Assembly (NCBI GenBank): GCA_020355165.1
Contig: CP070661.1
Location: 3,102,601 to 3,166,600, forward strand
Source: Burkholderiales bacterium
GTDB taxonomy: Bacteria; Pseudomonadota; Gammaproteobacteria; Burkholderiales; Burkholderiaceae_F
Direction: 5' to 3'
DNA length: 64,000 bases
In this document: positions 18,020 to 40,904 of the stretch, in pieces
Layout: each line of letters opens with the position of its first letter
How positions within the stretch are numbered: position 1 is the stretch's first letter
Translations under genes and position numbers: made by a program
The notes under the pieces: model-generated
Seen by the model: the letters and a program-made list of their open reading frames with translations, nothing else
Database searches by the model: none
What the model was told of the DNA's origin: nothing

Positions 18020-18096
18020 TGGGGAGTCGCCAAGCTGGTTAAGGCACCGGATTTTGATTCCGGCATTCGAGGGTTCGAATCCTTCCTCCCCAGCCA
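18020..18096 (+). tRNA. tRNA-Gln (anticodon TTG), CCA encoded
   Basis: A full cloverleaf can be drawn. The acceptor arm pairs TGGGGAG (18020-18026) with CTCCCCA (18086-18092), followed by discriminator G and encoded CCA. The anticodon arm CCGGA-TTTTGAT-TCCGG gives anticodon TTG. The T arm GAGGG-TTCGAAT-CCTTC contains the universal TTCGAAT loop. Length is 77 with CCA. Location between ispE and prs is conserved in Proteobacteria. Confidence 0.97.
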
Positions 18097-38253: not shown

Positions 38254-38937
38254 ATGACCGAGGCCGACGCCACTGCCGAGCTGCCGCTGATCGAGTTCGA
38301 CCGGGTGCGCAAGGCGTTCGGCGTCGGACCCGCGGTGCTGGAGCAGGCGAGCTTCACCGTCGGGCGCGGGCAGCTGGTCGTGCTCAGCGGAGCCAACGGG
38401 GCCGGCAAGTCGACCGTGCTGAAGCTGATCACCGGCGACCTCGCGCCCGACCGCGGCCGCGTCGCCGTCGCCGGCGAGCAGCCGGCACGGCTGCGCGGAG
38501 CGCCGCTGCGCACGCTGCGGCAGGCAATCGGCATCGTGCCGCCGGACCCGCACCTGCTGGCCGATCGCAGCGTGCTGGAGAACGTGATGCTGCCGGCGCT
38601 GGTCGGCGGGCTGTCGCGCCGGGCGGCGGCCGAACGGGCCCGCACGGCACTGCTGCGGCTTGGCGTATCCGACCACGCCAGGATGCCCGCGCAGCTGTCG
38701 GCAGCGGCGCAGCTGCGCGCGGCACTGGCCCGCGCGGTCGTCAACCGGCCGGCCATCCTGCTGCTCGACGAGCCGACCGCCTTTCTCGACACCGAGGGGG
38801 CGGCCGGGCTGCTGCGCCTTCTCGACGAGTTCGCCCAGGCCGGCATGGCGGTGCTGCTGGCCTCGCACGGTGAACCGGCACCGCTGCCGCCCACCGCACG
38901 CCGGCTGCGCCTGGTCGAGGGACGGGTCTGCGCATGA
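38254..38937 (+). CDS. ftsE: Cell division ATP-binding protein FtsE with degenerate ABC motifs
   Basis: Partner of FtsX, controlling septal peptidoglycan hydrolases. The 227-residue ABC ATPase has an intact Walker A (SGANGAGKST, about residues 48-57), Walker B (AILLLDEPTAFLD) and the switch His (LLASHGE). The signature is LSAAAQLRAALARAV instead of LSGGEQQR, and the Q-loop reads IVPPDPHLL instead of VFQDHxLL, so both key elements are changed. Identity is secured by the ATGA overlap with ftsX and by ARAVVNRPAILLLDEPT. Either ATP hydrolysis is weakened or catalysis is rearranged. Confidence 0.88.
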   Translation: MTEADATAELPLIEFDRVRKAFGVGPAVLEQASFTVGRGQLVVLSGANGAGKSTVLKLITGDLAPDRGRVAVAGEQPARLRGAPLRTLRQAIGIVPPDPHLLADRSVLENVMLPALVGGLSRRAAAERARTALLRLGVSDHARMPAQLSAAAQLRAALARAVVNRPAILLLDEPTAFLDTEGAAGLLRLLDEFAQAGMAVLLASHGEPAPLPPTARRLRLVEGRVCA

Positions 38938-39851
38938 GGACGCTGGCAGTGCGCGCTCATGGGCTGCGCGAGATGGCGCGGCTCATCGGCCGCCGGCCCG
39001 GCAGCTTCCTGCTCGCCGTCCTGCTGGCGGCTGCGGCTTTCACGGTGCCGCTTGCCGGCGCCTCGATCGCCCGTTCGGTCGCGCCGCTGGCGGAACAGCT
39101 TCCGCTCGGGCCGGAGGTCAACCTGTTTCTCGCATCGTCGGCGTCGCCGGCCGACATCCGCCAGCTGCAGTCGCAGCTGGCCGGCCGGGCCGACGTGAGC
39201 CGGGTCGAGTGGGTCAGCCGCGACGAGGCGCTCAGGGCGCTTGCCGAGCGCACCGGCGGGAGCAGGCTGGCCGAGCTGAAGGTCAATCCGCTGCCGGACG
39301 TCCTGGTGGTCACGCTGATGCCGCGGACGCCGCCGGCCGAGATCGAGGCGGCAGTCGGCGAGCTGCGCAGAATCGCGCGAGTGGACTCGGTGGCCGCCGA
39401 CACCGGCTGGCATCGGCAGCTTCACACCCTGCTGCGCGCGCTGGCGGCAGCCGGGGCGCTGGTCGGCGGTCTGGCGGCCTGCCTGCTGGTCCTGATCGTG
39501 CTGGCCTCGGTCCAGCTGCAGCTCAGCGGTTCCGCCGAGCAGGTGCGCCTGCTGCGCCTGGTCGGTGCCGAGCCCCGCTACATCGTCCGCCCCTACGCCT
39601 ACGCCGGTGCGCTGACGCTGGCCGCCGGTGCCGGTCTGGCAACCGGACTGGCCTGGATGTTCCTGGCCGCGGCCGGCGAGCCGGCGACCGAACTGGCGCG
39701 GGCCTATCGCGCCGCCGTCACCCTCGAGCCCCTGCCTTTGCCCTGGCTGGCCGCCTTCGTCGCCGGCGCTGCTGCCGTCGGCGGCCTCGTCGCCTCGATC
39801 GGCACCCGCTGGGCCCTGCGCCGCAACCCCGACGCCGGCCATCGGCACTGA
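38934..39851 (+). CDS. ftsX: Cell division protein FtsX
   Basis: Permease-like membrane subunit of FtsEX. The 305-residue protein has an N-terminal membrane helix (FLLAVLLAAAAFTVPLAGAS) and the FtsX extracellular domain (EVNLFLASSASPADIRQLQS, SRVEWVSRDEALRALAERTG). Three C-terminal helices follow, including ACLLVLIVLASVQLQLSGSA with the conserved EQVRLLRLVGAEPRYIVRPY. The ATG overlaps the ftsE stop. The ftsE-ftsX-rpoH order is the standard proteobacterial one. Confidence 0.93.
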   Translation: MRTLAVRAHGLREMARLIGRRPGSFLLAVLLAAAAFTVPLAGASIARSVAPLAEQLPLGPEVNLFLASSASPADIRQLQSQLAGRADVSRVEWVSRDEALRALAERTGGSRLAELKVNPLPDVLVVTLMPRTPPAEIEAAVGELRRIARVDSVAADTGWHRQLHTLLRALAAAGALVGGLAACLLVLIVLASVQLQLSGSAEQVRLLRLVGAEPRYIVRPYAYAGALTLAAGAGLATGLAWMFLAAAGEPATELARAYRAAVTLEPLPLPWLAAFVAGAAAVGGLVASIGTRWALRRNPDAGHRH

Positions 39852-39908: not shown

Positions 39909-39958
39909 GGCCGCGCGCTCTCGCGGCTGAACCAATAGGTTGGCGGGCGGTCTATGGT

Positions 39959-39985
39959 TTGGCACTCGATCGCACCGAGTGCTAA
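39959..39985 (+). promoter_or_regulatory. CIRCE element (HrcA operator) upstream of rpoH
   Basis: TTGGCACTC (39959-39967), a 9-base spacer, then GAGTGCTAA (39977-39985). This is the CIRCE consensus TTAGCACTC-N9-GAGTGCTAA with one mismatch in the left arm and the exact spacer length. It ends 25 bases before the rpoH start codon, a position where HrcA binding would block transcription or clearance. HrcA itself is not in this window. Confidence 0.88.
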
Positions 39986-40010
39986 CATCACCCTCAAAGG
40001 AGATGGCTGC

Positions 40011-40904
<894 letters not shown>

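Follow-up and report, generated by a model that had tools for sequence, protein, structure and literature searches.

A natural FtsE with eroded catalytic motifs and a preserved nucleotide pocket in a betaproteobacterial family

Septation in E. coli is considered to require the hydrolysis of ATP by FtsEX. The ftsE gene of a Burkholderiales bacterium (assembly GCA_020355165.1, contig CP070661.1) raises the question of how this complex works when its ATPase subunit departs from the canonical catalytic motifs. The gene is located at 38254..38937 on the forward strand of the window, the whole stretch of 64,000 nucleotides that was analysed, and encodes a protein of 227 aa. Residues 148-155 read LSAAAQLR where the canonical sequence is LSGGEQQR, with LSAAA (38695..38709) replacing the expected LSGGE, and both glycines of the canonical ABC signature (LSGGQ/E) are missing. 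The Q-loop region (residues 95-102) reads VPPDPHLL, with Pro97 (codon CCG, 38542..38544) in place of the canonical Gln. Each of the altered codons, P97 (CCG, 38542), A150 (GCA, 38701), A151 (GCG, 38704) and A152 (GCG, 38707), is one base away from the canonical codon. The other elements expected of an ABC ATPase are intact: the Walker A motif GANGAGKS (residues 46-53, 38389..38412), the Walker B Asp172 and Glu173 (codons GAC and GAG, 38767..38772) and the switch His205 (codon CAC, 38866..38868), all on the forward strand; the D-loop D179 is also present. The translation thus bears out what an earlier note had read at this locus, namely an FtsE with a changed signature and Q-loop, intact Walker A, Walker B and switch His, and an intact FtsX beside it.

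This is a true ftsE, belonging to an ftsE–ftsX–rpoH locus. It is found directly upstream of ftsX (38934..39851, forward strand, 305 aa), which it overlaps by four bases, and rpoH (sigma-32; 39954..40904, forward strand) is the downstream neighbour, matching TIGR02392 with 409.3 bits, above its cut-off, and sharing 62-69% identity with the Undibacterium, Rhodocyclaceae MAG and Rugosibacter loci, which places the bacterium among the betaproteobacteria. FtsX is full length and carries the Pfam FtsX_ECD and FtsX C-terminal domains; its match to TIGR00439 covers positions 7-290 of 292, and its 164.1 bits do not reach the cut-off of 255. Among ABC ATPase families, FtsE fits TIGR02673 (FtsE) best, with 169.8 bits against 121.7 for the runner-up TIGR02211 (LolD), while remaining below the TIGR02673 equivalog cut-off of 264.85 bits. 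A sequence comparison with PDB chains likewise gives FtsE as the best matches. Furthermore, an AlphaFold2 model (mean pLDDT 89.5), whose input alignment combined this protein with 12 others taken from named records, has FtsE 9iue as its best PDB match (Z 30.0, rmsd 1.6 Å over 219 aligned residues). A second, canonical FtsE that could act as a partner was not seen in the genome, the next of 68 matches (L002) being only 38% identical; we take this one to be LolD. By regular expression, the 20 best ABC ATPase matches of the same genome comprised 12 proteins with LSGG, one with VSGG, one with LSQG, five with no clear signature and ftsE itself. Apart from these genes, a tRNA at 18020-18093 was the sole Rfam match at gathering score within the 64-kb window.

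The earlier note had proposed aligning FtsE from relatives to see whether the change is lineage-wide. The answer differs between the two motifs. A congener (G001), 68% identical and with its own assembly, reads ISAAARQR and has a normal Q-loop Gln, so that the altered signature, seen in two of three genomes, characterises the genus to that extent, and P97 is confined to the present species. No FtsE was found in the third genome of the genus (G002), which is 77% complete.

At the level of the family, 67 genomes were searched for FtsX, and the FtsE beside it was read in 59. Seven genomes with weak FtsX matches only (G002, G018, G078, G029, G027, G085 and G026) were left out of the tally; the match fetched from G026 (L104) had a LolD/MacB-like look. 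Three of the seven (G018, G078 and G029) are the genomes of g17, none of which gave a convincing FtsX match, and FtsEX may for this reason be lost in that genus. In a further genome (G077), one strong FtsX match was found with no adjoining FtsE and was not tallied; this match (L050, G077:C292) is the only family FtsX above the curated cut-off, and its contig is probably foreign to this incomplete MAG.

The tally separates the nucleotide pocket from the catalytic residues. The Walker A Lys and Ser/Thr, as well as the Walker B Asp, are kept in all 58 scorable family rows. The Q-loop Gln is kept in 39/58, the catalytic Glu in 45/58 and the switch His in 40/58 family FtsE proteins. The first signature Gly is kept in only 7 of the 59, and the second in 56, being lost in the present protein, its congener G001 and the broken G070. 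LSGGE is found in four of them (G008, G004, G030 and G079). The remaining signatures vary by genus: LSAG or LSSG in g9, g10 and g16, LSEG or LSNG in g2, LASG in g4, LAAG in g8, LSxG in g5, g6, g13 and g15, and xSAAA in g1, the genus studied here; LSGGA, LAGGA, LGGGD and LSVGQ also occur in the family. Gln, Glu and His are lost together in g4, g6, g13 and g5. The reading frame is intact in 57 of the 59 ftsE genes, the two fragments being G069 and G070. Different catalytic residues are therefore eroded in different genera of the family, with Walker A and the Walker B Asp preserved.

An order-level control of 120 genomes (4 in the family, 116 outside) gave FtsX in 100 and a readable FtsE in 98; 16 genomes had no FtsX match at 1e-10, and FtsE was missing in G137, where a contig end cuts it, and in G055. 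Nearly all of the 98, a few of them gapped, are canonical: both signature glycines were kept in 95/97, as was the first taken alone, Glu in 96/98, His in 96/98 and Gln in 90/97. The Gln alone was altered in G039 (Gly), G147 (Pro) and G037, G160 and G116 (Glu). In one other family, f42, the erosion equals that of the most degenerate members of the family studied here: both of its members (L304 in G151, L305 in G107) show an FSDSE or FSDTE signature and lack the switch His, the catalytic Glu being replaced by Asp and the Q-loop Gln by Arg, while Walker A is intact. Natural FtsE proteins with lost catalytic motifs were not found to be reported in the open-licence literature searched.

The history of these losses was approached with a quick tree of 77 rows, in which FtsE, its motif columns removed, was joined with FtsX, and from which G069 and G070 were left out. 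The minimum numbers of changes were seven for Gln, five for Glu, five for His, three for Ser, three for the first Gly and two for the second Gly, counts that cannot separate gain from loss; placement deep in this tree is uncertain owing to several long branches. With moderate support (87), the genus studied here lies close to the canonical G008, G004 and G012, and its loss of both glycines consequently looks recent.

Within genera that have lost several residues, the dN/dS of ftsE was 0.06-0.12 in g2 and 0.11-0.21 for pairs in g4, with values of up to 0.35 elsewhere (g18); many pairs are saturated at synonymous sites, above all in g9, and the rows of g6, g13, g5 and g15 are too distant for this analysis. 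In the genera that could be tested, the degenerate ftsE genes are under purifying selection. Between genera, the FtsE score correlates with those of FtsX (rho 0.86), EnvC (0.80) and the amidase (0.77), G069 and G070 being left out. A specific co-decay of FtsE, FtsX and EnvC was rejected since the amidase score falls too, and generally fast evolution may account for some of the signal.

The partners of FtsE are retained. In this genome (G000:C1:581539-582654, 428 aa), as in most family members, EnvC is full length, and the alignment of the present EnvC with that of E. coli (8hd0) spans the coiled coil and the LytM domain; the ORF beside envC is presumably a phosphoglycerate mutase. The genome also encodes a LysM+M23 NlpD-like protein and one Amidase_3 protein (G000:C1:3555650-3556297), and an Amidase_3 gene is present in 63 of the 67 family genomes, this one included. 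Both EnvC and the amidase of the FtsEX–EnvC–amidase system are hence found together with FtsEX.

In E. coli, EnvC L236 and I240 hold the restraining arm (PMC12505981). Their counterparts here, L249 and I253, are hydrophobic in 47/47 family rows, and the idea that EnvC autoinhibition has been lost is not supported; this conservation is weak evidence because hydrophobic residues at such heptad positions would be preserved in any coiled coil. FtsX keeps its extracellular domain, in which L103 aligns with F152 of E. coli FtsX, a residue required for EnvC binding (PMC12505981, PMC7668044). A short N-terminal tail of FtsX was rejected as the cause of the difference, since the tail is equally short in canonical relatives (median 21 aa in family and order alike). 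As a separate observation, two genomes of family f41 (L300 in G106, L301 in G150) have a canonical FtsE and no EnvC match at 1e-20.

Compared with the FtsE of E. coli, P. aeruginosa and V. cholerae, the type VII ABC proteins of known FtsEX–EnvC systems, the present protein has in common the fold, the ftsX neighbour, EnvC, Walker A and B and the switch His, and differs in its LSAAA signature, its Q-loop Pro and its score below the FtsE equivalog cut-off. To judge from its sequence, it is a natural variant within the known FtsE kind. The E. coli variants D162N and E163Q offer a close analogy, as they would, like this protein, be expected to bind ATP but not to hydrolyse it; they are laboratory mutants of Walker B, whereas the present protein has an intact Walker B, and its changes, natural and lineage-wide, affect other motifs. 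A likeness can also be drawn with the degenerate sites of TM287/288, TAP and MRP1, which work despite a non-canonical signature or catalytic residues. In these proteins, a degenerate site works alongside a canonical one. FtsE acts as a homodimer (PMC11627006) and, unlike in those proteins, both of its sites would be degenerate.

The earlier note had held that an FtsE able to bind ATP but lacking the signature glycines would break the model in which hydrolysis gates hydrolase activation, or need a different mechanism. That it would break the model is too strong, because published work on E. coli and P. aeruginosa describes EnvC as activated by the binding of ATP, not by its hydrolysis (PMC11139282; PMC12505981), and because in E. 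coli, given NlpD and a broken FtsEX–FtsA contact, hydrolysis-dead FtsEX still promotes EnvC-dependent separation (PMC7343993). The reports on amidase activation differ, attributing it to ATP binding in E. coli and P. aeruginosa, to hydrolysis in M. tuberculosis and to a nucleotide-independent mode in V. cholerae (PMC11139282).

The FtsEX of this family probably binds ATP, hydrolyses little or none of it and serves as a nucleotide-bound scaffold for EnvC. Catalytic residues have been lost from FtsE while the residues of the nucleotide pocket, FtsX, EnvC and the amidase are kept, with ftsE under purifying selection; the loss of hydrolysis and the scaffold role would be what this pattern implies. 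FtsE would then be a nucleotide-binding subunit with little or no hydrolysis, to a degree that would differ by genus. ATP-bound FtsEX, or FtsEX driven by nucleotide exchange, could position and open EnvC at the septum without a hydrolysis-driven cycle, with NlpD acting as a parallel amidase activator, and hydrolysis would be slow or absent; in E. coli, this step serves to reset the complex and to relieve a block on septal synthesis. The present FtsE may still hydrolyse ATP slowly, since it keeps the catalytic Glu and the switch His. Against a scaffold role stands the failure of both E. coli FtsE K41A and E163Q to restore separation (PMC7668044, PMC12505981), which indicates that hydrolysis matters in that organism.

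Three other explanations have to be weighed. It is highly improbable that the altered motifs are an assembly or base-calling artefact of a G+C-rich stretch. Such an origin would fit the single-base distance of every altered codon from its canonical form, and P97, which is not common to the congener, could be a single-base error. However, the same three Ala are found in the independently assembled G001, which argues that the signature change is real and, for the signature, removes the sequencing error that the earlier note had named as a possible refutation. In addition, related losses occur throughout the family, the reading frame and the codon-position G+C are normal, and the differences between the two ftsE genes per codon position (0.24, 0.18 and 0.43) fall mostly on third positions, the pattern of a working gene.

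The substitutions might instead be tolerated, with FtsE hydrolysing ATP at a useful rate despite its unusual signature, an explanation that the intact catalytic Glu and switch His of the present protein favour and that we nevertheless regard as unlikely. The second Gly is kept in 56 of the 59 family proteins, a majority of the family keeps Gln, Glu and His, and some half-sites of other ABC proteins, such as TAP2, may hydrolyse ATP with LAAGQ-type signatures. Tolerance leaves unexplained the genera g4, g6, g13 and g5, in which Glu, His and Gln are lost together, and the genus studied here has lost the second Gly too, the present protein also lacking the Gln. A decay of FtsEX, with relic genes left after first hydrolysis and later the entire complex had ceased to be needed in the family, has a slim chance of being correct. 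It draws on the seven of the 67 family genomes with weak FtsX matches only (E 4.5e-4 to 9.8e-7; all three g17 genomes included), on the fall of the FtsX and EnvC scores with that of FtsE and on the 16 of 120 order genomes lacking an FtsX match, and is opposed by the unbroken frames in 57 of 59 genes, the nearly invariant Walker A and a dN/dS that stays well under 1 in the most degenerate of the testable genera too.

If FtsEX acts in its ATP-bound form with little or no hydrolysis, a change in FtsA may have permitted it. An FtsEX unable to hydrolyse ATP acts through FtsA in E. coli to block septal synthesis, and FtsA G366D breaks this contact; FtsE D162N then supports EnvC-dependent separation, provided that NlpD is present (PMC7343993). 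The FtsA of the present genome has Pro at the E. coli G366 position and would lack the Gly needed for the block. Among family FtsA proteins, Gly was found at this position in 0 of 21 clearly aligned rows, genera with canonical FtsE included, as against 33/50 order rows; the 21 are those of 50 family rows for which a statement on residue 366 can be made, and Gly occurs in 13/50 when the rows are counted as aligned, the region around 366 being poorly aligned or unread in g2, g5, g6, g9, g10, g13, g15 and g16.

Within the order sample, Gly366 accompanies canonical FtsE in 29 of 37 cases and an altered or missing FtsE in 4 of 13 (Fisher P 0.005), an exploratory value that ignores relatedness among rows that are related and that were partly chosen knowing the FtsE state, the lower-scoring ones being hand-picked. 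Gly366 is missing despite a canonical FtsE in 8 of the 37 order members and also in some family members. It is possible that the change at the FtsA G366 residue permitted the loss of FtsE hydrolysis, a suggestion weaker than that of an FtsEX with little or no hydrolysis.

FtsA shows other peculiarities. It is strongly diverged in g2, g6, g9, g10, g13, g15 and g16 (L379-L387, L438-L457), with approximately 205-354 bits compared with approximately 465-483 in other genera (446 in one truncated row). An insertion of about 17 residues is found near the E. coli G366 region in g6, g13 and g15, and in f41 (G106, G150) FtsA is also strongly diverged and has Asp at the G366 position.

A bolder proposal, to be held tentatively and with some doubt, is that the whole betaproteobacterial family runs FtsEX without hydrolysis: a selected ATP-binding pseudo-ATPase would hold FtsX–EnvC primed, enabled once the contact with FtsA that obliges the E. 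coli complex to hydrolyse ATP had been lost, and the same conversion would have taken place at least one more time in the order (f42). A lineage from which the hydrolysis residues have been removed piecemeal, with the ATP pocket and EnvC kept, would offer a test of which step of the FtsEX cycle does the work, and of whether the contact with FtsA is what makes hydrolysis necessary.
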